From assembly GCF_041242975.1 (NCBI RefSeq), contig NZ_CP162488.1, positions 920,001-984,000 of the forward strand: a DNA stretch of 64,000 nucleotides, read 5' to 3'. The notes under the pieces are model-generated. The model searched no databases, had not been told where the DNA came from, and worked only from the letters and a program-made list of their open reading frames with translations. This document shows positions 2,165-56,778 of this stretch, piece after piece; the first letter of the stretch is position 1; each line of letters begins with the position of its first letter. This stretch comes from Xanthomonas sp. DAR 35659 (lineage in GTDB: Bacteria; Pseudomonadota; Gammaproteobacteria; Xanthomonadales; Xanthomonadaceae). The position numbers were made by a program, and so were the translations under genes.

Positions 2165-2256
2165 AGGCCGGGATTCGGGAATGGGGATTGGGGATTCGTA
2201 AGGAGCGGGCTGCTGCGCTTTGCGAATCCCCACTCCCGAATCCCCAATCCCGGCCT
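2165..2256. repeat. GGGAATNGGGATT-type inverted repeat
   Basis: The left arm starts AGGCCGGGATTCGGG and the right arm ends CCCCAATCCCGGCCT, about 34 nt each with imperfect pairing and a loop of roughly 25 nt. It lies between ubiE and the aminopeptidase gene and could act as a transcript hairpin. Relatives of the same repeat are at 19362-19472 and 19580-19620, around 21864-22024, and inside mreC (22856-23116). Confidence 0.75.
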
Positions 2257-2298
2257 TCCGGTAAACTGCGGGTTTTCCCCGAACCGGTGCTGTCCGCC

Positions 2299-4242
2299 AT
2301 GCGTTCCCCGTTCCTGTTGTTGTCCCTGGCCGCGGTCATCGCGACCGGGTGTTCCCGCGAGGCGCCCACCGAGGCCGCCGCTCCCGCCGCCGCCAAGCCC
2401 GCGCCCGCCGCCGCCGTGAAACCCGCCGACCGCAGCCACGACGAAAGTTCCTACGCCGATCCGTCCAAGGTCGTGATCAAGGATCTGGCGCTGGACCTGA
2501 AGCTGGATTTCGACAGCAAGCAGATCGGCGGCACCGCCACCTACACGCTGGACTGGAAGGACAAGAGCGCCAAGCAACTGGTGCTGGACACGCGCGAGCT
2601 GACCATCGAGAAGGTCCAGGGCGACGACGGCAAGGGCAACCCGGCGCCGCTGCAGTACGCGCTGGCGCCGGTGGACAAGATCTACGGCAGCAAGCTGACC
2701 ATCGAGGCGCCGACCCAGCCGCAGAAGGTCACCATCGCCTACCACACCGCGCCGACCGCCTCGGGCCTGCAGTGGCTGGAGCCGTCGATGACCGAGGGCA
2801 AGAAGCTGCCCTTCATGTTCAGCCAGTCGCAGGCGATCCACGCGCGCTCGTGGGTGCCGCTGCAGGACACGCCGAGCGTGCGCTTCACCTATAGCGCGCA
2901 TGTGACGTCGCGTCCGGACGTGATGGTGCTGATGAGCGCCGACAACGATCCCAAGACCGCGCGCGACGGCGACTACAGCTTCAAGATGCCGCAGCCCATC
3001 CCGTCCTACCTGCTGGCCATCGCCGCCGGCGACCTGGTGTTCAAGCCGATCTCGGCGCGCTCGGGCGTGTGGGCCGAGCCGGCCATGGCCGACAAGGCGG
3101 CCAAGGAGTTCGAGGACACCGAGAAGATGATCGTGGCCGCGGAAAACCTGTACGGCCCGTATCGCTGGGGCCGCTACGACATGCTGGTGCTGCCGCCGTC
3201 GTTCCCGTTCGGCGGCATGGAGAACCCGCGCCTGACCTTCGCCACCCCGACCGTGATCGTCGGCGACAAGTCGCTGGTGTCGCTGATCGCGCACGAACTG
3301 GCGCATAGCTGGTCCGGCAACCTGGTGACCAACGCCAGCTGGAAGGACATCTGGCTCAACGAAGGCTTCACCACCTACGTGCAGGCGCGCATCACCGAGG
3401 CGCTGTACGGCGCCGAAGCGGCGGAGATGGAGCGCGAGATCGACCAGACCGATCTGCTCGCCGAACTGAAGGGCATGAGCCCGGCGGACCAGGCGCTGGC
3501 GCTGCCGGCGCTGACCGAGCGCGATCCGGACGATGCTTTGAGCCAGGTCGCCTACGTCAAGGGCGCGTGGTTCCTGCAGTTCCTGGAGCAGCGCTTCGGC
3601 CGCGCCACCTTCGATCCGTTCCTGCGCGGCTGGTTCGACGACCACGCGTTCCAGAGCGCCAACACCGACCAGTTCGTGGACTACCTCAAGAAGAACCTGC
3701 TGGCCAAGAAGCCCGGTGCGGTGAGCGAGGCGGAACTGCACGCGTGGCTGGACGAGCCGGGCATTCCGGCCTTCGCGCAGAAGGCGCGTTCGCGCAACTT
3801 CGCGATGGTCGATACTGCGCGCATCGCCTGGGTCGGCAGCGGCACCTTGCCGGGCAAGCAGGTCACCGACGCCTGGAGCACGCAGGAGTGGACGCGCTTC
3901 CTGAGCGGCCTGGGCGAGACGCTCAAGCCCGAGCAGCTCAAGCAACTGGATGCGGCCTACCACTTCACCGGTACCGCCAACGGCGAGATCGCGATGCGCT
4001 GGTATCCGCTGGCGATCCGCAGCGGCTATGCCGAGGCGCGTCCGGCCGCCGGCGAGTTCATCGCCCGCGTCGGTCGTCGCAAGCTGATCCTGCCGATCTA
4101 CGCCGAACTGGTGAAGACGCCGGACGGCCTGGCCTTCGCCAAGCAGGTGTTCGCCCAGGCCAAGCCCGGCTACCACCCGATCACCACGGTGTCGGTGGAG
4201 GACATGCTGGCCAAGGCCGACAAGGGCGCCGCCGCGCACTGA
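2299..4242 (+). CDS. M1-family metallo-aminopeptidase, predicted lipoprotein (leukotriene A4 hydrolase-like)
   Basis: The ATG at 2299 gives 647 residues with a lipoprotein signal: a hydrophobic stretch followed by the lipobox IATGC, with Cys at about 20, then an Ala/Pro-rich linker. M1 catalytic motifs are complete: exopeptidase motif GGMEN at 305-309, zinc motif HELAH at 332-336 and the third zinc ligand Glu at 355 in WLNEGF. The C-terminal helical region matches the LTA4H-type aminopeptidase arrangement. The enzyme would trim N-terminal residues from peptides in the periplasm while tethered to a membrane. An upstream in-frame ATG at 2188 lies within the repeat hairpin and would bury the signal peptide, so it was not used. 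Confidence 0.92.
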   Translation: MRSPFLLLSLAAVIATGCSREAPTEAAAPAAAKPAPAAAVKPADRSHDESSYADPSKVVIKDLALDLKLDFDSKQIGGTATYTLDWKDKSAKQLVLDTRELTIEKVQGDDGKGNPAPLQYALAPVDKIYGSKLTIEAPTQPQKVTIAYHTAPTASGLQWLEPSMTEGKKLPFMFSQSQAIHARSWVPLQDTPSVRFTYSAHVTSRPDVMVLMSADNDPKTARDGDYSFKMPQPIPSYLLAIAAGDLVFKPISARSGVWAEPAMADKAAKEFEDTEKMIVAAENLYGPYRWGRYDMLVLPPSFPFGGMENPRLTFATPTVIVGDKSLVSLIAHELAHSWSGNLVTNASWKDIWLNEGFTTYVQARITEALYGAEAAEMEREIDQTDLLAELKGMSPADQALALPALTERDPDDALSQVAYVKGAWFLQFLEQRFGRATFDPFLRGWFDDHAFQSANTDQFVDYLKKNLLAKKPGAVSEAELHAWLDEPGIPAFAQKARSRNFAMVDTARIAWVGSGTLPGKQVTDAWSTQEWTRFLSGLGETLKPEQLKQLDAAYHFTGTANGEIAMRWYPLAIRSGYAEARPAAGEFIARVGRRKLILPIYAELVKTPDGLAFAKQVFAQAKPGYHPITTVSVEDMLAKADKGAAAH

Positions 4243-5415: not shown

Positions 5416-6131
5416 AACGCATTCTGCTCGGCGCGCTGTGCGCCGTCGCCCTGGCCGGTTGCGGCGACCGCGAGGCCGAACGCAAGGCGCAGGCCGCGGC
5501 CGAGGCGCAGGCCAGGCAACAGGCCGCCGACGATCTGGCCAAGCAATACGACGCCGCGGTGAAATCCGGCAACTGGGACCTGGCGCGCATCCATGGCGCG
5601 GCGCTGCTGGAGCAGTACCCGGGCTCGGACGCGGCCACGCGCATCGAATCCAGCTATGCCGAAGTCAAGGCCAAGGGCGAGGCGGCGCGCGAGCTGCGGC
5701 GCATGCAGGCCGCCTGGGAGTATTCGCAGGTGCCCGCCGGCAAGGGCACGCAGCGCTCGGCGATGCTGTACAGCCGCGACAAGGTCGATGTGGATGGCAG
5801 CGGTCCCAAGCCGGTGCAACTGGTGTTCCGCGATCACCCGGAGTGGAAGCGCAGCGCCTATCTGGTGCTGCAGGCCGGCGATTTCCGCTGCGCCGGCGGC
5901 TGCAAGGTGCAGCTCAAGGCCGACGACGCGGCGCCGCGCGCGGCCGCGGCGTGGCGCCCGAACACCGACGAGGCGATCGCGATGTTCATCAGCGACGACA
6001 AGGCGCTGTGGAAGCTGGCGCGCAAGACCAAGGTGTTGCAGATCGAGTTTCCGGTGAAGGCGGGCGGCACCCGTACGGCGGTGTTCGAGACCGGTGGACT
6101 GGACGGGTCGCAGATGCCGGGATGGGACTGA
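5412..6131 (+). CDS. Uncharacterised lipoprotein with N-terminal coiled region
   Basis: 239 residues. The N-terminus is a classic lipoprotein signal (LLGALCAVALAGC, Cys at about 17). It is followed by an Ala/Gln/Glu-rich helical segment (about 20-55) and a region with TPR-like character (AKQYDAAVKSGNWDLARIHG). The C-terminal half contains an isolated Cys pair (FRCAGGCKV) and beta-rich sequence. I do not recognise a characterised family. It starts within the stop of the hydrolase gene and overlaps the next gene by 10 bp, so it is translationally coupled to both. Confidence 0.8.
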   Translation: MKRILLGALCAVALAGCGDREAERKAQAAAEAQARQQAADDLAKQYDAAVKSGNWDLARIHGAALLEQYPGSDAATRIESSYAEVKAKGEAARELRRMQAAWEYSQVPAGKGTQRSAMLYSRDKVDVDGSGPKPVQLVFRDHPEWKRSAYLVLQAGDFRCAGGCKVQLKADDAAPRAAAAWRPNTDEAIAMFISDDKALWKLARKTKVLQIEFPVKAGGTRTAVFETGGLDGSQMPGWD

Positions 6132-6774: not shown

Positions 6775-6840
6775 TGTAGGAGCGGCTTCAGCCGCGACAG
6801 ATAGTTGATGCAGCCTGTCGCGGCTGAAGCCGCTCCTACA
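6775..6840. repeat. REP hairpin, GTAGGAGCGGCTTCAGCC family
   Basis: Two 26-bp arms, TGTAGGAGCGGCTTCAGC... and its reverse complement, face each other around a 14-nt spacer directly after the HAD gene. It may act as an mRNA 3' hairpin. Members of the same family recur at 16711-17287, 47190-47260 and 56709-56778. Confidence 0.85.
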
Positions 6841-7088: not shown

Positions 7089-7140
7089 CCCACTCTATTC
7101 GCCGCTACGGAAGGGAACCCGGAAAATCCAAAGCAATAGC

Positions 7141-7245
7141 AACAGCCACAGCAGCAGCCACAACCATGGCCACAGCCAGAGCCACGGCCAGAGCCACGGC
7201 CAGAGCCACGGCCAGAGCCAGAGCTACGGCCAGACCCACGGTCGG
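7141..7245. repeat. Imperfect tandem repeat, 12-nt unit GGCCAGAGCCAC
   Basis: After a diverged start (AACAGCCACAGCAGC), the 12-nt unit GGCCAGAGCCAC repeats about four times and then decays into AGAGCTACGGCCAG. There are no spacers or conserved longer units, so it is a simple tandem tract and not a CRISPR array. It lies about 220-320 bp upstream of the sigma-54 promoter. Confidence 0.8.
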
Positions 7246-7463
7246 GGGCGTACCGCGGTCGGATGAGACCGACGCTCCAAGAGAAGAGGCGCCGATGTGC
7301 CGATCTCGGCCAGCCGAGCGCACCGCTGCGCTGATCGCGATACAGGTCCGTGGCACAAAGTGTGGCGATATCGATACAGCGCCGCCGCTGGACGGGGCCG
7401 CGCTGGTGTCCCGTGGGCCGGCGATGCCTGTCCTGGCGGCGATGCCGCGCTGCAGCAGGGCGC

Positions 7464-7479
7464 TGGCACGTGGGTTGCT
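7464..7479 (+). promoter_or_regulatory. Sigma-54 (-24/-12) promoter of the xox operon
   Basis: TGGCACG-TGGG-TTGCT (preceded by C) matches the RpoN consensus YTGGCACG-N4-TTGCW at every specified base, with correct GG/GC spacing. The -12 element is 86 bp before the xoxF ATG, leaving a leader of about 75 nt. The only enhancer-binding protein gene in the window is the convergent AcoR-type regulator at 17301-19280. Confidence 0.8.
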
Positions 7480-7564
7480 CGTTCTTCTCGCGATGTTCCC
7501 GCATCCCGCCGCGCCGCATCGGCCGACGGCAAGCGCCACGGCACTCAACGAGGGGAGTAGAACG

Positions 7565-9583
7565 ATGCACAGTCATCCATGTCGTACCCGCACCTGGACG
7601 CTGCTCGCGCTGGCCACCGCGCTGGTGCTGGCCGGGTGCAAGAAGCAGGAAGAGGCCGCGGCGCCCGCCGCGCCCGCCGCGCAGCCATCGGCCGCGGCCG
7701 CTCCCGCGCCTGCCGCGGCGGCCGACACCGATAGCGAGTTCGCCAGCACCGCCAGCAACCCCGACAACTGGGGCGGCATCGGCCGCGACTTCGGCCTGAC
7801 CCGGCATAGCCCGTTGGCCGAGATCAATCGCGACAACGTCAAGAATCTGAAGATGTCGTGGGAAATGAAGACCGACGCCACCCGCGGCCACGAAGGCCAG
7901 CCGCTGGTGATCGGCAACATCATGTACATGGTCAGCGCGTATCCGAACAACGTGTTCGCGATCGACCTGGCCGCGCAGGACGACGGCGGCAAGGTGCTGT
8001 GGAAGTACACCCCGCAGCAGGACGAGCGCTCGGTGGCGGTGGCGTGCTGCGACACGGTCAACCGCGGCGCGTCCTATGCCGACGGCAAGGTGGTGTTCGG
8101 CAGCCTCAGCGGCGATGTGATCGCGCTCGATGCCAAGACCGGCAAGGAAGTGTGGAAGCAGAAGCTCGCCTATCCGGAAAAGGGCGAGACCATCACCATG
8201 GCGCCGATCATCGCCGACGGCAAGGTCGTGGCCGGCATCAGCGGCAACGAGTTCGGCGTGCGCGGCCGCGTCGCCGCGTACGCGCTGGCCGACGGCAAGC
8301 AGGCCTGGTCGTGCGAGGCCACCGGCAGCGACAAGGACATCTGCCTGGGTCCGGATTTCAACAAGGCCAATCCGCAGCATGGCCAGCTCGGCGACCTCGG
8401 CGTGAAGACCTTCCCCGAGGAGGGCTGGAAGCGCGGCGGCGGCGCGGCGTGGGGCTGGTACAGCTACGACCCGAAACTGAAGCTGGTCTACTACGGCACC
8501 GGCAATCCCGGCCTGTGGAGCCCGTCGTACCGCTGCGGCAAGACCACGCAGAAGGAGTGCGATACCGGCGAGTACGACAACAAGTGGTCGATGACCCTGT
8601 TCGCGCGCAAGATCGATACCGGCGAAGCGGTGTGGGGCTACCAGAAGACGCCGTTCGACCAGTGGGACTACGACGGCATCAACGAGCCGATCCTGGTCGA
8701 CCTGACCATCGACGGCAAGCAGGTGCCGTCCGTGGTGCAGTTCGACCGCAACGGTTTCGCCTATGTGCTCGATCGTCGCGACGGCACCCTGCTGCGCGCG
8801 CACAAGTTCGTGCCGGCCAACTGGGCCGAGCGCATCGACATGAAGACCGGGCGTCCGGTCAAGGTCGCCGCGCATTCGCCGTTGGAGCGCGGCAAGAAGG
8901 TCGAGGCGTTCCCGTCGGCGATGGGCGGCAAGGACCAGCAGCCGTGCTCGGTGGATCCGGCCAATTCGGCGGTGTTCTTCTGCGGCACCAACAACTGGCA
9001 CATGGAACTGGAACCGCAGGAACGCGGCAACACCATGATGGGCCTGCCGTACGTGTTCGCCAACGTGATGATGAAGCCCAACGAGCCCGGCGCGCTGGGC
9101 ATCGTCAAGGCGTTCGACGTGGTCGAAGGCAAGTCCAAGTGGGAGATCAAGGAGAAGTTCCCGGTGTGGAGCGGCACCCTGGTCACCGACGGCGGGCTGG
9201 TGTTCTACGGCACGCTCGACGGCTGGTTCCGCGCGGTCGACAAGGACACCGGCAAGAAGCTGTGGGAGACCAAGCTGCCGTCGGGCATCATCGGCAATCC
9301 GATCGCCTACAAGGCCAACGGCCACCAGTACGTGGCGGTGTTCTCCGGCATCGGCGGCTGGATCGGCCTGCCGGTCGCCGGCGGCCTGGATCCGGGCGAT
9401 CCGTACGGCGCGCTCGGTGCCGCGGGCCTGGCCTTCAGCAACGGCTTCGACAAGATCCCGTTGGGCGGCATGGTGCATACGTTCCGCATCGACGGCGCCG
9501 GCAAGACCATCACCGCCAGCGCGACCGCCACCGCGGCGACCGGCGGTGGTGCTGCGGCCGCCGCGGCCAAGACCGCGCGATGA
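7565..9583 (+). CDS. xoxF: Lanthanide-type PQQ methanol dehydrogenase (XoxF-like), predicted lipoprotein
   Basis: 672 residues from the ATG at 7565, which has an AGGGGAG ribosome site. Family features are clear: eight-bladed quinoprotein propeller, vicinal disulfide Cys161-Cys162 (ACCDTVNRG), metal/PQQ ligands Glu229 (GNEFGVRG) and Asn314 (GTGNPG), catalytic Asp368 and, two residues on, Asp370 in WDYDG. The second Asp marks lanthanide-dependent XoxF/ExaF enzymes; calcium MxaF has Ala there. It oxidises methanol (possibly other short alcohols) in the periplasm with PQQ. Unusual: instead of a plain Sec signal there is a lipobox LVLAGC with Cys25 and an Ala-rich linker, so the enzyme should be membrane-tethered. 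The stop overlaps the next start (ATGA). An ExaF/PedH-type ethanol dehydrogenase is the main alternative. Confidence 0.88.
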   Translation: MHSHPCRTRTWTLLALATALVLAGCKKQEEAAAPAAPAAQPSAAAAPAPAAAADTDSEFASTASNPDNWGGIGRDFGLTRHSPLAEINRDNVKNLKMSWEMKTDATRGHEGQPLVIGNIMYMVSAYPNNVFAIDLAAQDDGGKVLWKYTPQQDERSVAVACCDTVNRGASYADGKVVFGSLSGDVIALDAKTGKEVWKQKLAYPEKGETITMAPIIADGKVVAGISGNEFGVRGRVAAYALADGKQAWSCEATGSDKDICLGPDFNKANPQHGQLGDLGVKTFPEEGWKRGGGAAWGWYSYDPKLKLVYYGTGNPGLWSPSYRCGKTTQKECDTGEYDNKWSMTLFARKIDTGEAVWGYQKTPFDQWDYDGINEPILVDLTIDGKQVPSVVQFDRNGFAYVLDRRDGTLLRAHKFVPANWAERIDMKTGRPVKVAAHSPLERGKKVEAFPSAMGGKDQQPCSVDPANSAVFFCGTNNWHMELEPQERGNTMMGLPYVFANVMMKPNEPGALGIVKAFDVVEGKSKWEIKEKFPVWSGTLVTDGGLVFYGTLDGWFRAVDKDTGKKLWETKLPSGIIGNPIAYKANGHQYVAVFSGIGGWIGLPVAGGLDPGDPYGALGAAGLAFSNGFDKIPLGGMVHTFRIDGAGKTITASATATAATGGGAAAAAAKTAR

Positions 9584-11331
9584 GCCGGCGGCCACGCGTC
9601 CACGGTGCGGGCGAACGCCGGACGGCGTTCGCTGCGCGGCGACTGTCCGTGGGCGCGCGTGCCGTGCTGCTGTTTTGCAGCCTCGGACTCGTCGCCGCAG
9701 GTTGCACGCGCGAGCCGTCGTCCGCGACGGCTCGCGTTCCTGAAGCGGCTTCCAGTGCGGCCGCCAAGCCCGCCGCGGCCACGCCCGCGACCGCACTCGC
9801 CGCCGATGCGCCGGTGCTGCGGGTCTGCGCCGACCCGGGCAACATGCCGTTGTCCAACCGCGCCGGCGAAGGCTTCCAGAACAAGATCGCGCAGGTCCTC
9901 GCCGAGGCGATGGGCCGGCGCCTGCAATACGAATGGCGCACCTACTACCAACGCGGGTTGGCGCGCAGCACCATCAACGCCGGCAAGTGCGACGTGCTGA
10001 TGGACATGAACAGCGATTTCGAGATGGGCCTGCCCACGCAACCGCTGTACCGCTCCACCTATGTGCTGGTGACCCGCAAGGGCCTGGCGCTGCAGCCGGC
10101 CTCGCTGGACGATCCGGCGCTGAAGAAACTCAGGATCGGCGTGTTCCAGAGTTCGCCGGCGCGGCAGGCGCTGTTCGACCATGGCGTGTCCGGCGACGTG
10201 CAATACCTGTTCTACGATTCGGCGACTTCGCCGCAGGACCATCCGGGCAAGCTCGCCGAGCGCGTCGCCGGCGGCCAGCTCGACGCCGCCGAATCCTGGG
10301 GTCCGGTCGCCGGCTACTACGCCGCGCGTGGCGGACTGGGCGTGGTGCCGCTGAACGTCATCGACGACGAGGTGCTGGAGTATTCGATGGCGTGGGCGGT
10401 GTCGCGCAAGAACGCCGCGCTGCGCGATGCGTTGAACGCGGCGATGCAGCGCAGCGCCGGCAAGATCGGCGCGATCCTGCGCGATTACCACGTGCCGCTG
10501 GTGGCCTGCGCCGACTGCATCGTCAACGGCGAGCTGCGTTCGCACGGCAGCTACGACACGCCGACCGACGATGTCACCACGCCGAGCGCGCAGGCCTCCT
10601 CGGAGATGCTGGCGCAGTTGCAGTTGCGTATCGCCGGTGGCGCCGACCCCAACCAGGAACTGGCGCATGCGCTGGACGCCGGAGATGGCGTGCGCGTGGC
10701 CTGGTTGCTGCGCCACGGCGCCAGCGCCGACCGGCCCAACCTGCTGGGCGAGCCGCCGCTGCATCAGGCGATCCGCAACCAGGCGCCGGTGCTGGTCGGC
10801 GAGCTGCTGGCCGCGGGCGCCAACGTGGAAACCCGCGACGGCAACGGGTGGACGCCGCTGATGAAGGCCGCGTGGTCCAACGATGCGCAGAGCCTGGCAC
10901 AGCTGCTGGCGCGCCGCGCCAAGGTCGATGCGGTGTCCAGGGATGGCTGGACCGCGCTGGACCTGGCGATCTCCTACGCCGATGTCGATCTGGTGCAGGC
11001 GCTGCTCGGCGCCGGCGCCGACGTGCGCCGCGCCAATCCGGCCGGCTTCACCCCGGTGATGTTCGCGGTGGCGCGCAACGACCCGAAGATGCTCGACGCG
11101 CTGTTGGCGCACGGCGCCGCGGCCGACCGGCCCAACCGCGCCGGGATCACCCCGCTGATGCTGGCGGCTGCGGCCGGCCGCGACGAGGCCACCCGTCGCC
11201 TGCTCGCCGCCGGCGCCGACGCCCGCACCCGTGATCCGGAGGGCAAGACGCCGGCGGCGCTGGCGCAACAGCGTGGCGACGCGCCGCTGGCGCAACTGCT
11301 GACGGAGGCCGAACACCGCCGCACGCAATGA
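9580..11331 (+). CDS. xoxJ: XoxJ/MxaJ-type periplasmic binding protein fused to ankyrin repeats, lipoprotein
   Basis: 583 residues, overlapping xoxF by 4 bp. A lipobox (LVAAGC, Cys42) and Ala-rich linker lead into a solute-binding-protein fold (about 78-330) with the quinoprotein-associated MoxJ/XoxJ pattern LRVCADPGNMPLSN, KCDVLMDM and PLYRSTYVLV. From about residue 345 to 575 there are around six ankyrin repeats (for example GWTPLMKAAWSNDAQSLAQLL, shortened here by family knowledge to its TPLMKAA core). XoxJ binds and may help mature or activate XoxF in methylotrophs; ankyrin repeats usually mediate protein contacts. The fusion is unusual and suggests a scaffold holding dehydrogenase and cytochrome together. 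Confidence 0.85.
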   Translation: MSRRPRVHGAGERRTAFAARRLSVGARAVLLFCSLGLVAAGCTREPSSATARVPEAASSAAAKPAAATPATALAADAPVLRVCADPGNMPLSNRAGEGFQNKIAQVLAEAMGRRLQYEWRTYYQRGLARSTINAGKCDVLMDMNSDFEMGLPTQPLYRSTYVLVTRKGLALQPASLDDPALKKLRIGVFQSSPARQALFDHGVSGDVQYLFYDSATSPQDHPGKLAERVAGGQLDAAESWGPVAGYYAARGGLGVVPLNVIDDEVLEYSMAWAVSRKNAALRDALNAAMQRSAGKIGAILRDYHVPLVACADCIVNGELRSHGSYDTPTDDVTTPSAQASSEMLAQLQLRIAGGADPNQELAHALDAGDGVRVAWLLRHGASADRPNLLGEPPLHQAIRNQAPVLVGELLAAGANVETRDGNGWTPLMKAAWSNDAQSLAQLLARRAKVDAVSRDGWTALDLAISYADVDLVQALLGAGADVRRANPAGFTPVMFAVARNDPKMLDALLAHGAAADRPNRAGITPLMLAAAAGRDEATRRLLAAGADARTRDPEGKTPAALAQQRGDAPLAQLLTEAEHRRTQ

Positions 11332-11402
11332 CCGCCGTATCGCTCCACGCAGGCCGCACCCGCGGCCTTCCCCACAGACCGTCCCGCAAAGGTTGTTTTC
11401 CC

Positions 11403-11984
11403 ATGCGCAATGTCGTCGTCCGCTCCGGTGCCGTCCCGAATCTGCTGCAACTGTTCCTGCTCGCGTTGACCTTGACCCTGGCCGCCTGCGGCAAGGATGC
11501 GCCGCCGTCCACGCCCGCCGCCGCGCCGGCCCCCGCCGCGCCCGCGCCCACGGCACCTACCGCACCAGCGCCAAGCGCCGCCCCGGCGGCCGCGCCCGCC
11601 GCTGCTGCCGCGACGCCGCCGGCGGCCGCGGTCACCCCGATCCCGAAAGGCCCGCCGGTGAAGGTGACCCCGGAGCTGGCCGCCGAAGGCAAGAAGATCT
11701 TCCTGTCCGCCGGCTGCAGCGCCTGCCACGGCGGCACCGGTGGCGGTGGCATGTGCCCGCCGCTGACCAACGATATCTGGGTCTACGGTCACGACGACGA
11801 CACCCTGCGCGCGTTGATCAACGAAGGCACCGCCGGCATGGCCGCGCACGGCAAGACCCGTATCGGCCACGAAAAGGTGGTGGGGCAGATGCCACCGTTC
11901 GCGCCGGTGCTCAAGGAGGGCGACACCGAGAAGCTGCTGGCCTTCATCCACTCGATCAACAAGACCGCGGGCGCCGCTCCATGA
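11403..11984 (+). CDS. xoxG: Lipoprotein cytochrome c, XoxG-like electron acceptor
   Basis: 193 residues from the ATG at 11403, chosen because it gives a clean signal (FLLALTLTLAAC, Cys29). An alternative ATG at 11328 would overlap the previous stop but adds 25 unsupported residues. After a roughly 50-residue Pro/Ala tether comes one class I cytochrome c domain: heme motif C105-SA-C108-H109 and a distal Met in QMPPFAP, with GGGGMCPPL between as in cytochrome cL-type partners of methanol dehydrogenases. It should take electrons from XoxF and pass them to the terminal oxidase chain. Its stop overlaps the next start by 4 bp. Confidence 0.85.
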   Translation: MRNVVVRSGAVPNLLQLFLLALTLTLAACGKDAPPSTPAAAPAPAAPAPTAPTAPAPSAAPAAAPAAAAATPPAAAVTPIPKGPPVKVTPELAAEGKKIFLSAGCSACHGGTGGGGMCPPLTNDIWVYGHDDDTLRALINEGTAGMAAHGKTRIGHEKVVGQMPPFAPVLKEGDTEKLLAFIHSINKTAGAAP

Positions 11985-13024
11985 GGCCAGGCGCGCGCTC
12001 CAGGCTCGGTGGCGCGGCGCTGGCGCTGGCGCTGGCCGTGGTGGGCTGCCAGCGTGCGCCTGCACCGGCGCCGACCGACGCCGCGGACCCTGGCGCAGGC
12101 GCGCAACCCAAGCCGGCCGCGGCGGCGTCGCCGGCGTTGGCCTATGTGCCGAACCAGCGCAGCGGCACCATCTCGGTGATCGACACCGACAAGGACGTGG
12201 TGTTGCGCACGTTGTCCGCGCAGGGCCAGCTCGGCACGCGCCTGCAGCAGGTGCTGCCCGGGCCGAGCGGGCACCTGTACGTGATCGACGCGCAGGGCCA
12301 CCGGCTGCTGGAGCTGGACACGGTGCAGGATCGGATCCTGCGCAGCGTGGACATCGGCGAGAACGCCGAGGGCATCGCCGCGTCGCCGGGCGGCGACCAG
12401 TTCGCGGTGTGCGTGGAAGGGCAGAACCAGGTGATGCTGATCGATCCGGCCAGCTTCGCGATCGGCGCGCGCATCGCCACCCAGGGGCAGGCGCCGGAAC
12501 ACTGCGTGTACAGCCCGGACGGCGCGCTGCTGCTGACCAGCAACGAAGGCTCCGACGATCTCGACGTGATCGACCTGAAGGCGGGCAAGTCCGTCGGCGT
12601 CATCGCCACCAGCGGCCATCCGCGCGGCCTGGCGTTCGCGCCGGACGGCAACACCGCCTACGTGGCGCAGGAAGGGGTCGGCGTGGTGGACGTGGTGGAT
12701 CTGGTCGCGCGCCGGCGCGTGGCCAGCATCCCGGCCGGGCAACGCACCGCCGGCATCGCCATCGCGCGCGACGGCAGCCGCGTGTATGCCTCCAATGGCG
12801 GCGCCGGCACGGTCAGCGTGATCGATCCGGCCGCGCGCAGCACGCTGGCCGAGATCCCGGTCGGGCAGCGACCCTGGAACCCGGCGCTCACCGCCGATGG
12901 CAAGAAGCTGTACGTGGCCAATGGCCGCTCCAACAGCGTGAGCGTCATCGACACGACCACGATGAAGGAGATCAAGCAGATCGCGGTGGGCGAGTTGCCC
13001 TGGGGAGTGGTCATCGCGCAGTGA
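11981..13024 (+). CDS. YVTN-repeat beta-propeller lipoprotein associated with PQQ dehydrogenases
   Basis: 347 residues: signal with lipobox VVGC (Cys23), Pro/Ala linker, then about seven repeats of the YVTN/YncE type ([46 protein letters not shown]). Propellers of this kind are commonly encoded beside PQQ alcohol dehydrogenases (the quinoprotein-associated beta-propeller family), but their role is not settled; assembly or electron-transfer scaffolding are proposals. It starts within the stop of the cytochrome gene, so it is translationally coupled to it. Confidence 0.88.
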
Positions 13025-13067
13025 AGCCGGGCGCGCATGCAGCGCGGCCGCAGGAGGGGAGGGGCGA

Positions 13068-14177
13068 ATGAAGACGCGAGCCGCGGTCGCCTGGGCGGCG
13101 AACCAGCCGCTGGCCATCGAGGAAGTGGACCTGCAGCCGCCCAAGCCCGGCGAGGTGCTGGTGCGCATGGTCGCCAGCGGCGTCTGCCACAGCGACGCCG
13201 GAACCCTGTCCGGCGCCGATCCCGATGCCGTGTTCCCGGTGATCCTGGGCCAGGAGGGCGCCGGCGTGGTCGAGGAGGTCGGGATCGGCGTGAGCAGCGT
13301 GCGGCCCGGCGACCACGTCATCCCGCTGTACATGCCCGAATGCGGCGTGTGCAAGTTCTGCCGCTCCGGCCGCACCAACCTCTGCCAGGCGATCCGCGCC
13401 AGCCAGGACCGCGGGCTGATGCCCGACGGCAGCAGCCGCTTCTCGCTGCGCGGGCGGCCGATCCTGCACTACATGGGCACCAGCACCTTCGCCGAGTACA
13501 CCGTGCTGCCGGAGATCGCGGTGGCCAGGATCCATCCGGCCGCGCCGCTGGACAAGGTGTGCCTGCTCGGCTGCACCGTCACCACCGGCATCGGCGCGGT
13601 GCTCAACACTGCGCGGGTGCGCCCGGGCGACAGCGTAGCGGTGTTCGGGCTCGGCGGCATCGGGCTGTCGGTGGTGCAAGGCGCGGTGATGGCGCGCGCC
13701 GGACGCATCATCGTGGTCGACATCAACCGCGACAAGTTCGAGCTGGCGCGCGCGCTCGGCGCCACCGATTGCCTGGACCCCAAGGACTTCGGCGCGCCGG
13801 TGCAGCAGGTGATCGTCGACCTGACCGACGGCGGCGCCGATTACAGTTTCGAATGCGTCGGCGACGTGCGCGCGATGCGCGCGGCGCTGGAGTGCTGCCA
13901 CAAGGGCTGGGGCGAGAGCATCATCCTGGGCGTGGCGCCGAGCGCGCAGGAGATCAGCACGCGGCCGCTGCAACTGGTCACCGGCCGCGCCTGGCGCGGC
14001 AGCGCGTTCGGTGGGGTCAAGGGGCGCAGCGAGCTGCCGGCCTATGCCGAGCGCTACCTGGCCGGCGAAATCCACATCGATGCGCTGATCAGCGAGACGC
14101 TGCCGCTGCAGGACATCAATCTCGCCTTCGACGCGATCCGCGCGGGCCGGGGCATCAAGTCGGTCGTTCTCTACTGA
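13068..14177 (+). CDS. frmA: S-(hydroxymethyl)glutathione dehydrogenase / class III alcohol dehydrogenase
   Basis: 369 residues with a strong AGGAGGGGAGGGG ribosome site. It follows the class III ADH pattern from end to end: MKTRAAVAW start, zinc ligand region GVCHSD, structural-zinc Cys cluster ([16 protein letters not shown]), NAD fold [23 protein letters not shown] and [13 protein letters not shown]. It is cytoplasmic and oxidises the formaldehyde-glutathione adduct to S-formylglutathione with NAD. Its place directly behind the quinoprotein genes is what supports methanol as their substrate: formaldehyde made in the periplasm is disposed of here. An S-formylglutathione hydrolase gene is not in the window. 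Confidence 0.93.
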
Positions 14178-14192
14178 CAACAAGGAGCAGGC

Positions 14193-16589
14193 ATGGCAAG
14201 CAGAGAAGGAAGCATCGTTCCGCGGACCAGCCCACTGGTGTTGGCCATCGTCGGCGCCATGGCCCTGGCGCCGACCCAGGCCCGCGCGCAGGCCACCGTC
14301 AATGCCGACGATGCGCAGGTCACCGCATTGGACCGGGTCGAGGTCACCGCCACGCCGATCCCCGGCACCCTGATCGACGCCGACCACCTGCCGTACACGG
14401 TGCAGACCGCCAATGCCGACGACCTCGCGCGCAGCCAGGCCGGCAACCTCAGCGACTTCCTGCTGCGGCGGATGAACGGCGTGGACACCAACGAGGTGCA
14501 GGGCAGTCCGTTCCAGACCGACCTCACCTTCCGTGGCTTCCGCGCCTCGGCGTTGCCTGGCGCGTCGCAGGGCGTGTCGGTGTACCTGGACGGGGTGCGC
14601 ATGAACGAGCCGTTCGCCGACATCGTCAGTTGGGACATGATGCCGGAGGCGGCGATCCGCAGCGTCGCGCTGATGCCCGGCTCCAATCCGCTGTTCGGCC
14701 CCAACACGCTCGGCGGCGCGTTGGCGTTCACCACCCAGTCGGGCCTGACCGCGCCCGGCCTGCGCGCGGACCTGTCGTTCGGCAGCGGCGCGCGCAAGCG
14801 CCTGGACGCGTCCTACGGCTATGCCGGGCGCGATGGCATGCATGCCTTCGTCGCGGTCACCGGCTTCGACGAGAACGGCTGGCGCGACGCGTCGGCAGGC
14901 CGCCTCGGCACCGTGTTCGGCAAGGTCGGGCGGCAGGGCGAGGACACCGACTGGGACGTGTCGCTGCTGCACGGGCGCAGCCGCCTGATCGGCAACGGCC
15001 TGCTGCCCAGCGGCCGCTACACCGACGAGGGCGTCGCGCCGGGCCTTTACGAGGCCGATCGCAGGGCGGTCTATACCTCGCCGGACCTGACCCGCAACCG
15101 CAACACGCTGCTGACCGCGCAGTTCGACCATCGGTTCGATCCCGACACCGCGCTGCATCTGCTGGCCTACTACCGCGAGGGTCGCCGCAACACGGTCAAC
15201 GGCGACATCAACGAGGACTACGAGGAATTCGTCGAGAACTGCGCCGACGGCTATGCCGCCGACGGCACGCCGCTGGACGACGACTGCGCGGTCGCGCGCG
15301 GCGACGCCGATGCGCTGCACAGCGGCGTACTCAACACCACGCAGATGCGCCAGCACGCGGAGGGTGTCGCCTTGAACTTCAGCCGCCAGGCCGGCGCGCA
15401 CGCACTGAGCCTGGGCGCCACCTACGACCGCAACCGGGTGCGCTACCGGCAGTACGAGCAGGAGGCATTCGTGGAGGACGACCGCTCGGTGGTCGCCGAT
15501 CCCGACGAGGAGCGCGAATTCTTCTCCGGCGTCGGTGGCCGTAGCAGCACGCTCGGCGTGTTCGTCGCCGACACCTGGGAAGTGAGCGAGGCCACGCACG
15601 TGACCGGCGCGCTGCGCTGGAACCGGGTCGCGGTGAGCAACGTGCTATCCACCGCCGAGGACGGCGCCCTGCCACGTGAGCGTTTCGTGTTCGCCAAGGC
15701 CAATCCGTCGCTGGGCATCACCCAGCGCCTGGGGGGCGGCTTCACCGCCTTCGCCTCGGTCTCGCAGAACAGCCGCGCGCCGACCGCGATCGAACTGGGG
15801 TGCGCCGATCCGGAGCAACCGTGCCGGCTGCCGACCGGATTGCAGGCCGATCCGCGGCTGGAGCAGATCGTCTCGCGCACCTACGAAGTGGGCCTGCGCT
15901 GGAACCCGTCGCCGGAGCAGGCGTTCAACGCTTCGCTGTACCGTGCCGACAATCGCGACGACATCCTGTTCCTGCGCGCGCCCAACACCCAGTTGGGTTA
16001 CTTCGACAACGTCGACCGCACCCGCTACCAGGGCGCGGACCTGAGCTACCGCGGCAGCCGCGGCGCATGGCGCTGGTTCGCCGGCTACAGCTACCTGGAT
16101 GCCACCTATCGCAGCGACGGCGAACTGCAATCGGGCGAACGCAGCATCGATCTGCGCCCGGGCATGCGCATCGCCGGATTGCCGCGCAACACGCTGAAGC
16201 TGGGTGTGGAATGGCAGGCGCTGGCGCCGCTGACGATTGGCGCGGATCTGCGCGCGTTCTCGCGGCGCGTAGCCAGCGGCAATGAGGATGGCCTGGTCGA
16301 GAATGCCGAGGACGGCGAGGAGGCCGCGCGCCACGATCTGTCCACGGGCGGCTATGCGGTGGTCGACGTGCACGGCACCTGGCAGATCGCCGAGGGCCTG
16401 TCGGTGTACCTGCGGGTCAATAACCTGTTCGACCGCCGCTACGAGACCTATGCGGCGATCGCCGAGGATCTGTTCCCCGATGGCGCGCTGGCGCGCCCGC
16501 AGGACGCCGCCGTCGAGGACGGCCCCTCGCGCTTCGTCGCCCCCGGTGCGCCGCGGCAATATCAGGTCGGCTTGCGCTGGCGGTTCTAG
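14193..16589 (+). CDS. TonB-dependent outer-membrane receptor of the xox operon
   Basis: 798 residues, 15 bp after frmA with an AAGGAG ribosome site. It has a signal peptide ending ARAQA (about residue 34), a TonB-box-like ALDRVEVTA at 45-53, a plug domain (about 60-180) and a beta-barrel ending in the terminal aromatic LRWRF. Several predicted loops are very acidic, including a Cys-bounded one near 349-366 (CADGYAADGTPLDDDC) and others near 425-444 and 697-716. As last gene of the xox operon it is a candidate importer of lanthanides or a metallophore, by analogy with TonB receptors near xoxF in methylotrophs. That role is inference; sequence alone does not rule out other ligands. Confidence 0.88.
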   Translation: MASREGSIVPRTSPLVLAIVGAMALAPTQARAQATVNADDAQVTALDRVEVTATPIPGTLIDADHLPYTVQTANADDLARSQAGNLSDFLLRRMNGVDTNEVQGSPFQTDLTFRGFRASALPGASQGVSVYLDGVRMNEPFADIVSWDMMPEAAIRSVALMPGSNPLFGPNTLGGALAFTTQSGLTAPGLRADLSFGSGARKRLDASYGYAGRDGMHAFVAVTGFDENGWRDASAGRLGTVFGKVGRQGEDTDWDVSLLHGRSRLIGNGLLPSGRYTDEGVAPGLYEADRRAVYTSPDLTRNRNTLLTAQFDHRFDPDTALHLLAYYREGRRNTVNGDINEDYEEFVENCADGYAADGTPLDDDCAVARGDADALHSGVLNTTQMRQHAEGVALNFSRQAGAHALSLGATYDRNRVRYRQYEQEAFVEDDRSVVADPDEEREFFSGVGGRSSTLGVFVADTWEVSEATHVTGALRWNRVAVSNVLSTAEDGALPRERFVFAKANPSLGITQRLGGGFTAFASVSQNSRAPTAIELGCADPEQPCRLPTGLQADPRLEQIVSRTYEVGLRWNPSPEQAFNASLYRADNRDDILFLRAPNTQLGYFDNVDRTRYQGADLSYRGSRGAWRWFAGYSYLDATYRSDGELQSGERSIDLRPGMRIAGLPRNTLKLGVEWQALAPLTIGADLRAFSRRVASGNEDGLVENAEDGEEAARHDLSTGGYAVVDVHGTWQIAEGLSVYLRVNNLFDRRYETYAAIAEDLFPDGALARPQDAAVEDGPSRFVAPGAPRQYQVGLRWRF

Positions 16590-17300
16590 CTGGATGGCGG
16601 TGGGGGCTTGGAAACGCGGGAGCGCGCCCGGCTTTGGTGGCAGTCGGGACTGAAGTCCCTGCCACAACAGCGATGCGGCGCGGATGCATCGTGACACCAG
16701 ACACCGGCTCTTGTAGGAGCGGCTTCAGCCGCGACATCGAAGCCGGCAAGCATCCGGTGACGACGAAACGCGATCGGAAATGAAGATTTTCTTTCAGCCG
16801 ATAGTGCGAATGAGCGCCGCCGTGGCACATCGGTGCTTTCGCGAACAACGCTGTCTGCTTTTCGAATCAATCTTGCTTATGCACCATGGCGGTTGCAGGC
16901 GTTCTGTCGCGGCTAAAGCCGCTCCTACAAACGCCGCTACACCGTTGTAGGAGCGGCTTTAGCCGCGACAGGCAAGCCGGAAGAGGATCGAGTTTCGGCA
17001 GCGGGGACTAAAGTTCCTCCCAAAACTGCAAGCGCAAACAAGCATCGCCACGGCAGGCGTCGACTTCTTTGTGGGAGCGGCTTCAGCCGCGACATCGAAG
17101 CCGGCGAGCCTGCGGTTGCGATGAAATGCGATCGGTAAATGAAGATTTTCCAGCCGATAGCGCGAACGAGCGCCGCCGCCGTGTATCAGCGCTTTCGCGA
17201 ACGCCGCTTCCTGCTTTTCGAAGCGCTCATTGCCTGTGGATCATGGGTTTTGCCGACGTTCTGTCGCGGCTGAAGCCGCTCCTACAAATGCCATTGTGCG
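16590..17300. repeat. REP-bounded cassette in two direct copies (16711-16930 and 17069-17287)
   Basis: No gene is seen in this 711-bp gap. It contains two related copies of a unit of about 220 bp. Each begins with GGAGCGGCTTCAGCCGCGA and ends with the inverted version GCCGCTCCTACAA; between them lie shared blocks such as ATGAAGATTTT, CAGCCGATAG and TTTCGCGAAC. A further inverted REP (16945-16971) pairs with the end of copy 1. The gap separates the ends of two convergent transcription units (receptor and regulator), where the hairpins may terminate both. Confidence 0.75.
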
Positions 17301-19280
17301 CTACATCGTCGCCAGACCGTGCTTGCGCAGCTTGCGGTACAGGGTGTTGCGGCTGATGCCGAGCGCGTCGGCGGTGCGGCTGACGTTCCAGCGGTGCCGT
17401 TCCAGTTGCTGCTGCAGCACGCGGCGCTCGGCGCTGTCCAGGGCGGCGCGGCCGGGCATGTCGTCGGCGGCGACCGCGTCGCCGTTGACCAGGCACGGCC
17501 CGCTGTCGGCATCGACGATCTCCTGCGGCAGGTTGGAGATGCGGATGACGCCGTCGGCGCACAGCACCGCGGCGGTGCGCAGCACGTTGCGCAACTGCCG
17601 CAGGTTGCCCGGCCAGGCGTAGCTGAGCAGCTTGTGCAGGGCGTCCTCGCTGATCCGCACGGCGCGCTCGCCGCTCTCCTCGCGCAGCAGGGTGCGGATC
17701 AGTTCGGCCTTGTCGCTGCGCTCGCGCAGCGGCGGCAGATGCAGCACCACGCCGTTGAGGCGGTAGTACAGGTCCTCGCGGAATTCGCCGGCTGCCACCA
17801 TCTGCGCCAGGTCGCGATGGCTGGCGCTGATCACGTGCAGTTCCAGCGGCATCGCCCGATCGCTGCCTAGCGGGGTCACGCTCTGTTCCTCCAGCACGCG
17901 CAGCAGGCGCGTCTGCAACGGCAGCGGCATGTCGCCGATCTCGTCCAGGAACAGGGTGCCGCCACTGGCCTGCAGCAGCTTGCCGTGGCGCCCTTCGCGC
18001 GCGGCATCGGTGAAGGCGCCGCGCGCGTAGCCGAACAGTTCGCTTTCGATCAGCGCTTCCGGGATCGCCGCGCAGTTCACCGCCACGAACGGCCGCGCCG
18101 ACCACGGCGAGCCGCGGTGCACCGCCTTGGCGAATTCCTCCTTGCCGGTGCCGGTGGCGCCGCACAGCAGGATCGAGACGCGGTGCGCGGCCAGCTTCAG
18201 GGCGTTGTCCAGGTTGTGGCGCATGCGCGGGTCCGAGCCGACATGCTCGCGCGCGTAGGCGGCCTCGCTGTCGCCGGCGGCGTTGCGCGGACGCGCGTCG
18301 GCGGCATGCCGCGGCGGTTGCGCCAGGGCGAAGAAGCGGCGCCCGTGGCAGGCGCAGCGGATCGACCACAGCGTGCTGGCGTCGTTGCGCGCGCGCTGCT
18401 CCACGGTGTCGAAGTCCAGTTGCATGATCTGCGAGATGTCGCGGCCGACCAGCAGGCCGCGCTGGCCCTTGCCGAGCTGCTCCAGCGCCGCTTCGTTGAC
18501 CGCCAGCACGCAGCCGTCGTCGCCGATCGCCATCAGCGCCTCGTGCAGCAGGCCGGCGAATTCCGGGCGGCTGTGGAAGCGCAGGATCCACGCGTGCCGG
18601 TACTGTTCCAGGAAATACGACCGCGCGATCTGCGCCGCCGACATGCGCACCAGCGCGCTGGTATGGCGCTGCACCAGCTTGGTGTCGCGCGCATCCGGCG
18701 TGGAAGCGTCCAGCACCGCCAGCAACTCGCCGTGCGGGTCCAGGATCGGCGCGCCGCTGCACGACAGCGGCAGATGCCGGGCCAGGTAGTGTTCGCCGCG
18801 GTGCACGCCGAGCGCGCTGCGTTCCACCGCGCAGGTGCCGATGCCGTTGGTGCCCTGGTAGCGTTCGGCCCAGCTGGCGCCGCAGAACAGTCCGGTCTGG
18901 CGGAACTCGCGCAGCAGCGCCGGGTCCTGCACGCTGTGCAGCACGGTCGCCTCGGCGTCGGCCACCACCACCGCGTAGCCGCCGCCGGCGATCTGCTCGT
19001 AGAGGTTCTCCATCTCCACCTTGGCCAGGCGCAGCAGGTGCTCCAGCCGCTGCTGGCGTTCGCGCAGCCCGCTGCCGTCGTGCACCATCGGCGAGGGCGT
19101 GGCGTCCGGATTCAGCCCGTACTCGTCCAGGCAGCGCTGCCAGGAGCGCGCCAGCACCGGCGGCAGCGGTTCGATCTGGCGGAACCGGCGCATCCGCGCC
19201 AGCAAGGCGGACTCGGCCTCGGCGGCGGTTGGCGCCGCGGCCGCGGCCTGCGGGAGGTTGGCTACAGTCAACTCCGACAC
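17301..19280 (-). CDS. AcoR-type sigma-54-dependent transcriptional activator
   Basis: 659 residues from the GTG at 19280, preceded by GAGGGG. A longer GTG start at 19325 lacks such a site. N-terminal GAF-type sensor region (about 60-215, VADAEATVLHSV, GTNGIGTCAVE), a PAS-like middle (about 240-310), AAA+ domain with Walker A GATGTGKE near 373-380 and Walker B LFLDEIGDM near 442-450, and a C-terminal Fis-type helix-turn-helix (NVSRTADALGISRNTLYRKL). AcoR-family activators commonly control alcohol and acetoin catabolism. The sigma-54 promoter ahead of xoxF makes that operon the likely target. Oddity: the sigma-54-contact loop reads GAFTDA, not GAFTGA. Confidence 0.92.
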   Translation of the reverse strand: MSELTVANLPQAAAAAPTAAEAESALLARMRRFRQIEPLPPVLARSWQRCLDEYGLNPDATPSPMVHDGSGLRERQQRLEHLLRLAKVEMENLYEQIAGGGYAVVVADAEATVLHSVQDPALLREFRQTGLFCGASWAERYQGTNGIGTCAVERSALGVHRGEHYLARHLPLSCSGAPILDPHGELLAVLDASTPDARDTKLVQRHTSALVRMSAAQIARSYFLEQYRHAWILRFHSRPEFAGLLHEALMAIGDDGCVLAVNEAALEQLGKGQRGLLVGRDISQIMQLDFDTVEQRARNDASTLWSIRCACHGRRFFALAQPPRHAADARPRNAAGDSEAAYAREHVGSDPRMRHNLDNALKLAAHRVSILLCGATGTGKEEFAKAVHRGSPWSARPFVAVNCAAIPEALIESELFGYARGAFTDAAREGRHGKLLQASGGTLFLDEIGDMPLPLQTRLLRVLEEQSVTPLGSDRAMPLELHVISASHRDLAQMVAAGEFREDLYYRLNGVVLHLPPLRERSDKAELIRTLLREESGERAVRISEDALHKLLSYAWPGNLRQLRNVLRTAAVLCADGVIRISNLPQEIVDADSGPCLVNGDAVAADDMPGRAALDSAERRVLQQQLERHRWNVSRTADALGISRNTLYRKLRKHGLATM

Positions 19281-19361
19281 GTGCGCCCCTCGATCCGACC
19301 CCGGATCAGGGCGCCAGTGACGCACAATCGGGTGCTGGGCTCAAACCGCAGTGCAGCAAAG

Positions 19362-19535
19362 GCCGGGAGTGGGGAGTCGGGAGTGGGGAATGGTAAGAGC
19401 GGCTTGGCTGGCGCGGAGTCCGTTTCGCGCTGCGGTCAGAACAAAAAAGCCGGGATTGGGGGGCGGGAATGGGCAATGGTAAAAGCGGCTTGGCTGGTGC
19501 CGATTCCGTTCCGCGCTGTGGCCAAAACGAAAAAA
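19362..19535. repeat. 87-bp tandem duplication with GGGAGTGGGGA repeat
   Basis: A unit starting GCCGGGAGTGGGGAGTCGGG at 19362 recurs with changes at 19449. Both copies continue AATGGTAA.AGCGGCTTGGCTGG and end in an A-run. An opposite-orientation arm of the repeat (GATTCCCCAATCCCGGC) sits at 19600-19620 next to the PfkB stop. No gene is seen in 19281-19620. Confidence 0.7.
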
Positions 19536-19552
19536 CCGCGCGATGCGCGGTT
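19529..19552 (-). terminator. Rho-independent terminator of the pfkB-family kinase gene
   Basis: AACCGCGC-GAT-GCGCGGTT is a perfect 8-bp stem. Read on the minus strand it is followed by a T-run (the A-run 19529-19535 on the plus strand), about 70 bp after the kinase stop. Confidence 0.7.
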
Positions 19553-47189: not shown

Positions 47190-47260
47190 TGTAGGAGCGG
47201 CTTCAGCCGCGACCGGGGCGTTACCGGTAACGCCCGGTCGCGGCTGAAGCCGCTCCTACA
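47190..47260. repeat. REP hairpin, GTAGGAGCGGCTTCAGCC family
   Basis: Perfectly paired REP arms plus a self-complementary middle (GGGCGTTACCGGTAACGCCC) make one long hairpin of about 70 nt between the convergent prc and transporter genes. Confidence 0.85.
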
Positions 47261-56708: not shown

Positions 56709-56778
56709 TGTAGGAGCGGCTTTAGCCGCGACCGGGCGTCCCCGGGAACGCCCGGTCGCGGCTGAAGCCGCTCCTACA
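56709..56778. repeat. REP hairpin, GTAGGAGCGGCTTTAGCC family
   Basis: A near-perfect pair of REP arms with self-complementary centre (CGGGCGTCCCCGGGAACGCCCG) between the convergent glycine-zipper and epimerase genes. Same architecture as 47190-47260. Confidence 0.85.

Follow-up and report, generated by a model that had tools for sequence, protein, structure and literature searches.

Where in the cell would a Xanthomonas bacterium oxidize methanol, and what would it gain by doing so? The question is raised by a 64,000-nucleotide stretch of Xanthomonas sp. DAR 35659 (bases 920001-984000 in a 5.4-Mb genome assembled as one contig; this whole stretch is called the window here), in which six plus-strand genes at 7565-16589 follow one another in the order xoxF-xoxJ-xoxG-YVTN-frmA-TonB receptor, with short gaps or overlaps between neighbors. 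The original prediction, made from the DNA letters, had read them as a complete lanthanide-type methanol oxidation operon of a Xanthomonas-like genome, with its own sigma-54 control, a facing activator, and built-in metal uptake, by which a plant-associated bacterium would use methanol, presumably derived from pectin, as an energy source. We consider it probable that the locus is a methanol oxidation operon built around a clade 1 XoxF and that the periplasmic proteins it encodes have become lipoproteins.

By its sequence, the quinoprotein is a clade XoxF1 enzyme with lanthanide-type ligands, in line with the XoxF-type assignment made at the outset. It scores 600 bits against TIGR03075 (cut-off, 480), and its best match among solved structures is XoxF1 (7o6z, 897 bits), followed by XoxF2 (4mae, 626 bits) and XoxF5 (6oc5, 511 bits). 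Our tree nests it within a 65-row XoxF1 clade that includes 7o6z (Shimodaira-Hasegawa-like approximate likelihood ratio test [SH-aLRT] support of 100) and within a 15-row Xanthomonadaceae clade (support of 100), which rules out a quinoprotein outside XoxF. The tree comprises 76 rows and was built by a quick method with SH-aLRT as its sole support measure, after 20 of 96 rows had been dropped (17 Xanthomonas rows for thinning, plus L009, L023, and L025). All of the metal ligands, including the extra lanthanide Asp, are present (Glu229, Asn314, Asp368, and Asp370), as are the vicinal Cys161-Cys162 pair and the catalytic Arg395.

An Asp preceding the metal Glu has been called diagnostic of XoxF1 (PMC8546591); in the window XoxF this residue is Asn. 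The same Asn occupies the position throughout the 15-row Xanthomonadaceae clade, in the three Dokdonella/Rhodanobacteraceae rows L056-L058, and also in L087, L089, and L090. Nearly all of the remaining XoxF1 rows carry Asp, among them L072 (labeled Lysobacteraceae, grouping with Dokdonella L076), and L081 carries Ser. Because the tree still puts the window XoxF inside the XoxF1 clade, the diagnostic Asp appears not to be universal in XoxF1. The AP8 XoxF1 of Methylacidimicrobium thermophilum (7o6z) resembles the Xanthomonas enzyme in its clade and in its metal, disulfide, and catalytic residues, but its Asp172 and Cys240 are replaced here by Asn and Ala; the Ala, which lies opposite the diagnostic position, is shared with most XoxF1 rows, whereas the Asn is uncommon.

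XoxF systems are generally regarded as soluble and periplasmic. In the window, XoxF, XoxJ, XoxG, and the YVTN propeller are all predicted lipoproteins (Table 1). Lipoboxes were called with a PROSITE-like pattern, relaxed in its rule for the start, that asks for a basic residue and a start codon 14 to 45 codons upstream. Counts of lipoboxes and promoters cover 78 loci (L027-L104); short pieces (L002-L026) were excluded, and the window itself is not counted. Twenty-seven of these loci form the Xanthomonas group (L027-L050, L052, L054, and L055; L030 is a Lysobacterales metagenome-assembled genome), in which 99 of 101 proteins pass the rule: XoxF in 26 of 27 loci, XoxJ in 26 of 26, XoxG in 23 of 24, and YVTN in all 24 loci where it is present. 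The two failures are the L049 XoxF, whose frame is apparently broken near its 5′ end, and the L042 XoxG, whose signal is gone. In the 49 more distant loci (L056-L104), by comparison, 11 of 168 proteins pass (XoxF, 4/49; XoxJ, 1/44; XoxG, 4/43; YVTN, 2/32). The AP8 enzyme was purified from the soluble fraction, according to its description (PMC8546591), and in the verrucomicrobial loci related to AP8 (L059-L061) XoxF, XoxJ, and XoxG all lack a lipobox. Within the Xanthomonas group the lipobox cysteine is conserved while its flanks vary. Closer to that group, Lysobacter (L051) and Pseudoxanthomonas (L053) have XoxJ, XoxG, and YVTN proteins that pass, together with an XoxF that keeps the cysteine but fails the rule with a proline at −3.

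Under the Lol rule of Escherichia coli, a lipoprotein with a +2 residue other than Asp goes to the outer membrane. Throughout the Xanthomonas group the +2 residue is never Asp (Lys in XoxF, Thr or Ile in XoxJ, Gly or Ser in XoxG, and Gln, Arg, or Glu in YVTN), and the four periplasmic proteins are therefore probably anchored in the outer membrane. Tethers of 28 to 57 residues, 54 to 74% of them Ala plus Pro, follow the anchor cysteines in the window. On the XoxF tree, the fewest changes that account for the XoxJ anchor number 2 (200 label shuffles gave a mean of 22.7 and a least value of 18), and with at least two changes XoxJ lipid anchoring may have arisen more than once. This count labels L051 and L053 as anchored and L096, whose XoxJ passes the rule with a signal that looks ordinary, as not anchored; its 79-row tree leaves out 13 loci and four XoxF2, XoxF5, and MxaF references, and the count further leaves out five loci without XoxJ, and 7o6z. 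A strict stepwise gain of anchors was rejected, since in G018, which belongs to a different genus of this family, the signals of XoxF, XoxJ, and XoxG are ordinary and YVTN, by eye, carries a lipobox; the position of G018 is unstable, being open in the 76-row tree and with Xanthomonas (support of 85) in the 79-row tree.

Table 1. Positions and assignments of the features of the xoxF1 locus in the window
Feature	Position	Strand	Basis or remark
Candidate activator-binding dyad GGCACAAAGTGTGGC	7352..7366	+	112 bp upstream of the −24 element
Sigma-54 (−24/−12) promoter TGGCACGTGGGTTGC	7464..7478	+	0 mismatches
xoxF, clade XoxF1 quinoprotein, predicted lipoprotein (Cys25)	7565..9583	+	TIGR03075, tree, ligands, lipobox pattern
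xoxJ with fused C-terminal ankyrin repeats, predicted lipoprotein (Cys42)	9580..11331	+	TIGR03871 and ankyrin models
xoxG-like monoheme cytochrome c (CSACH), predicted lipoprotein (Cys29), 57-residue Ala/Pro-rich tether	11403..11984	+	
YVTN beta-propeller, predicted lipoprotein (Cys23)	11981..13024	+	
frmA-type S-(hydroxymethyl)glutathione dehydrogenase (class III alcohol dehydrogenase)	13068..14177	+	TIGR02818
TonB-dependent receptor, LutH type	14193..16589	+	TonB barrel and plug, LutH kinship
AcoR-like sigma-54 activator, GAFTDA loop, convergent with the operon	17301..19280	−	Sigma-54 activator domain and Fis helix-turn-helix

Every part of the operon that the original prediction listed is present on the plus strand. 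The word "complete" holds for these named parts only: S-formylglutathione hydrolase is encoded elsewhere, and two models for formate dehydrogenase gave no match above their cut-offs in the genome. Four features were not part of the prediction: lipoprotein signals, the ankyrin-repeat half of XoxJ, the GAFTDA loop of the activator, and a second, canonical frmA-fghA locus. Neighboring genes are tightly packed (an ATGA overlap joins xoxF to xoxJ, 71 bp separate xoxJ from xoxG, and xoxG overlaps the YVTN gene). The comparison across relatives proposed with the prediction finds the six-gene order kept in 23 of the 27 Xanthomonas-group loci; L027, L030, and L049 stop at contig ends, and L042 is without xoxJ. 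An activator match lies on the opposite strand in 19 of the 27. The genome is Xanthomonas-like, as had been claimed: the window XoxF shares 96% identity with its Xanthomonas bonasiae counterpart, and the nearest named matches are almost all from Xanthomonas. Of the nine genomes listed for this genus in the sampled family, eight encode the enzyme. In locus L042 (X. arboricola pv. juglandis), xoxJ and the XoxG signal have been lost naturally, and xoxF, YVTN, frmA, and the receptor are retained. Xanthomonadaceae xoxF1 has already been published, and the family is reported to be among the taxa labeled by [13C]methanol on plants (PMC9258066); in the genome paper cited there, methanol and xoxF are absent from the main text.

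The XoxJ-like binding protein scores 254.4 bits against TIGR03871 (cut-off, 212.15), and its C-terminal half consists of ankyrin repeats. TIGR03871 and ankyrin models both match each of 28 scanned XoxJ proteins linked to XoxF1 (one from the window and 27 selected among 72 loci), and the solved XoxJ (6onp, 284 residues) matches only residues 45-312 of the window protein. A literature search combining XoxJ and ankyrin found no paper. The expected cytochrome c and YVTN propeller are both in place, although they score below the cut-offs of TIGR03872, the MoxG/cytochrome cL model (29.6 bits against 147.8), and TIGR03866 (165 bits against 287). The name XoxG rests on gene position and on matches of 38 to 90% in relatives, mostly directly after xoxJ. 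In Methylocella, too, xoxFJG is followed by a YVTN gene, which is termed there a LutB homolog (PMC9291206).

The last gene of the operon encodes a receptor that is LutH-type by sequence kinship, with a putative role in lanthanide transport, and to this extent metal uptake is indeed built into the operon. By one tool its best matches score 137.1 bits in Methylorubrum rhodinum and 126.8 bits in Methylocella, against 26.8 bits for the runner-up in its own genome; by blastp, the M. rhodinum match has 29% identity over 858 aligned columns (281 bits). About 0.4 kb downstream of the M. rhodinum receptor lie four DPDxDGTxD EF hands, which we take to be the hallmark of lanmodulin and hence of a LanM-like gene. 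No ABC transporter was seen in the nine frames scanned upstream of that receptor. The Xanthomonas operon differs from the Methylorubrum lut cluster (LutH, lanmodulin) in that the receptor is the last gene of a xoxF operon that contains neither an ABC transporter nor lanmodulin. Loss of lutH together with mxaF is reported to arrest growth on methanol with lanthanum until late acclimation (PMC7391723). Given this phenotype, the LutH kinship, and the lanmodulin-like neighbor, we assign the receptor gene, on sequence grounds, to lanthanide handling, and the YVTN gene probably belongs there too. PqqU and siderophore types were rejected for the receptor, as their NCBIfam matches fall far under the cut-offs.

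The closest described arrangement is the xoxF1 locus of Methylocella silvestris (xoxF1-xoxJ-xoxG, a binding protein, YVTN, and TonB, with LutBAH homologs; PMC9291206), for which our comparison sequence is strain TVC (L099). XoxF1, the XoxJ-ankyrin fusion, XoxG, YVTN, and a homologous TonB receptor are shared. The Methylocella locus differs in having a divergent receptor and an extra binding protein, with no sigma-54 site and no frmA match, and the lipobox is absent from its XoxF, XoxJ, and YVTN, whereas its XoxG passes the rule. Outside the Xanthomonas group, tblastn scores for the receptor are 467 bits in L084 (Rhodocyclaceae), 373 in L056 (Dokdonella), 371 in L097, 345 in L102 (Rudaea), 292 in L086, 278 in L060 (Verrucomicrobia), 233 in L099, 132 in L085 (cut sequence), and 61 in L051.

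A set of pqqABCDE genes is present on the same chromosome, so an enzyme stranded without genes for its pyrroloquinoline quinone (PQQ) cofactor is ruled out. XoxF is not the sole user of PQQ in this genome, in which two quinoproteins of the glucose dehydrogenase type also exceed the cut-off. Across 198 genomes of the family, pqqC occurs in 24, including 14 of the 16 with an XoxF that shares at least 77% identity with the window protein; the other 10 pqqC genomes lack an XoxF of this kind. The two XoxF genomes without pqqC are G030 (fragmented, 87% complete) and G012 (99% complete); the latter, whose XoxF row is identical to that of L051, has no pqqC match and may rely on external PQQ. The operon's FrmA is, as predicted, a class III formaldehyde-glutathione dehydrogenase (TIGR02818, 636 bits; cut-off, 543.95) and one of two copies over the cut-off, the other being encoded elsewhere in the genome with an adjoining fghA. 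Fae has no match in the genome, and matches to hexulose-phosphate synthase fall far below the cut-off. For this reason methanol is most likely a fuel here and not a carbon source, as judged from searches for Fae and hexulose-phosphate synthase. The predicted use as an energy source fits this gene content, but oxidation of formate finds no dehydrogenase above the cut-off. At 3530000-3545000 of the same genome (L134), an FdhF/YdeP-family oxidoreductase and FdhD adjoin a frame that by eye resembles a membrane transporter; this is a candidate locus for formate oxidation.

The expected sigma-54 control is supported by a perfect site before xoxF. Among window sites with at most one mismatch, TGGCACGTGGGTTGC at 7464 is the sole one on the plus strand, and five lie on the minus strand; the background in Xanthomonas-group loci is 0.07 per kb and strand. 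A site at this threshold precedes xoxF in 26 of the 27 Xanthomonas-group loci (not L029), in 16 of 18 other gammaproteobacterial loci (not L051 or L053), and in none of the remaining 33, one of which offered just 8 bp and another 247 bp to search; loci were grouped as gammaproteobacterial by label and tree. A candidate dyad for activator binding differs from GGCGCAAASTGTGCC by at most two mismatches, both in the window and in every one of the 26 site-bearing Xanthomonas-group loci, with its best place at −98 to −112 (−173 in L028), and 0 of 200 mononucleotide shuffles equaled it in each; the motif was derived from the same sequences on which it was scored. In the 16 other site-bearing loci, 28 to 200 of 200 shuffles equaled the best GGCGCAAASTGTGCC-like dyad.

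An AcoR-like activator does face the operon, and its start is most likely the GTG at 19280, because two orthologs have a stop just upstream. The loop through which such activators contact sigma-54 reads GAFTDA in the window protein and in 18 of 18 Xanthomonas orthologs that cover it; it reads GAFTGA in the activators of L060, L085, L087, L091, L096, L097, L102, and L104. In L091, L096, L102, and L104, activators 57 to 58% identical to the window's lie directly after xoxG. The same Gly-to-Asp change in NorR (G266D) is reported to escape the GAF domain fully and still to open promoters (PMC2941729). NorR G266D is a laboratory mutant of a nitric oxide sensor, whereas the change here is natural. 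By analogy, we infer that the AcoR-like activator may be constitutive through GAFTDA. The activators of L035, L045, and L052 (X. prunicola, X. phaseoli, and X. euvesicatoria, the last partial) are 90 to 93% identical to the window's and exceed in this those of L028 and L031, whose XoxF proteins are closer; the regulator gene has possibly recombined.

These parts suggest how the system might work. XoxF, loaded with PQQ and a lanthanide or calcium, would oxidize methanol to formaldehyde from a membrane tether; the +2 residues make the inner leaflet of the outer membrane the likeliest site of attachment. Electrons would pass to the tethered cytochrome XoxG, then to a soluble cytochrome, and on to the terminal oxidases, and the XoxJ-ankyrin protein and the YVTN propeller would act as tethered partners in assembly or metal handling. 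The LutH-type receptor would import chelated metal across the outer membrane. In the cytoplasm, the operon FrmA and the chromosomal FrmA-FghA would convert formaldehyde to formate. Transcription would require sigma-54 and the convergent activator, and the pathway would yield energy, not carbon. A more specific reading, which we hold only tentatively, sees an outer-membrane-tethered methanol oxidase whose four lipidated proteins are made together with the receptor, so that metal and substrate are caught at the cell edge, and whose GAFTDA activator, free of its sensory domain, keeps the operon on whenever sigma-54 is available. It is weakened by the loose coupling of anchors and receptor linkage in relatives: L051 and L053 have anchored XoxJ, XoxG, and YVTN with neither a strong receptor match nor frmA at the locus, and in G018, which has a receptor 64% identical to the window's, XoxF, XoxJ, and XoxG carry no anchors.

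Other observations also weigh against our interpretation. The lipoboxes were called by a pattern and not by a trained predictor. The M. silvestris XoxF1 is described as repressed by lanthanides, and deletion of its gene as having no prominent effect on growth with methanol (PMC9291206). The operon appears dispensable, since one of the nine listed genus members (G170) is without the enzyme and 4 of the 27 Xanthomonas-group loci contain a broken gene (xoxJ and the XoxG signal in L042, the XoxF 5′ end in L049, the XoxF frame in L052, and the receptor frame in L046), although breaks in draft genomes may be sequencing errors. Beyond the Xanthomonas group, just 9 of 51 loci matched the receptor, the other 42 giving no tblastn match within the available locus DNA, and the sole formate dehydrogenase candidate seen is the FdhF/YdeP-family protein with FdhD. 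An ordinary soluble periplasmic lanthanide methanol dehydrogenase operon, its lipobox cysteines unmodified, would agree with the soluble AP8 enzyme and with the ordinary signal peptides of most orthologs outside the Xanthomonas group; the sharp difference in lipobox frequency between that group and the more distant loci, the retention of the cysteine amid varying flanks, and its occurrence on all four proteins make such an operon improbable. Alternatively, lipid anchoring could be a general habit of Xanthomonadaceae periplasmic enzymes with nothing particular to methanol oxidation, an account that we find possible without favoring it. A peptidase-like open reading frame at 2188-4242 and the C-terminal part of another ending at 6131 both look lipoprotein-like by eye and have Ala/Pro-rich linkers; such a habit, however, would alter the reason for anchoring, not the location.

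The metal and the substrate invite two further alternatives. XoxF1 might hold calcium and serve as a low-lanthanide backup or as a regulator. The M. silvestris XoxF1 is described as down-regulated by lanthanides and as possibly containing calcium, and the NC10 XoxF1 as seeming to contain calcium (PMC9291206); the Asn before the metal Glu points the same way. Against this stand the neodymium with which the AP8 XoxF1 was crystallized (PMC8546591), the second (lanthanide) Asp, and the LutH-type receptor in the operon; moreover, no second such quinoprotein was matched in the genome at an E value of ≤1e-30, so that XoxF1 is not an evident backup. We judge the calcium account unlikely. It seems more doubtful still that the operon detoxifies or oxidizes other plant-derived alcohols or aldehydes, with methanol not the main substrate: the pairing with a second formaldehyde dehydrogenase and the lack of assimilation genes for the two pathways sought would suit that role, but the clade and the XoxJ partner are typical of methanol dehydrogenases.

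Lipoprotein signals on all four periplasmic proteins in Xanthomonas are apparently new, as are the LutH-type receptor, the ankyrin repeats of XoxJ, the GAFTDA loop, and the Asn in place of the diagnostic XoxF1 Asp. A literature search, mostly at the level of titles, found neither an account of XoxF systems made of lipoproteins nor one of the present operon; the one title that names a lipoprotein concerns, by its wording and the opening of its abstract, an abundant lipoprotein of Methylacidiphilum SolV. If true, the genus-wide conversion of these four partners into lipoproteins would amount to a new cellular architecture of lanthanide enzymes and would raise the question of how electrons travel from an outer membrane enzyme to the inner membrane. 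The operon also suggests that many plant-associated bacteria may derive part of their energy from methanol released by plants. The loop of its activator is a natural copy of a constitutive laboratory mutation.

A scan for terminators downstream of the operon found none. Eleven copies of a palindromic REP-like repeat, TAGGAGCGGCTTYAGCCGCGACA, lie at 6777-6838, 16714-17284, 47192-47258, and 56711-56776, several of them in facing pairs; five separate the operon from the activator gene. A tandem repeat of 12-, 18-, and 24-base units spans 7138-7241, upstream of the operon promoter, and an 86-bp tandem repeat (2.1 copies) occupies 19358-19538, directly upstream of the activator start.

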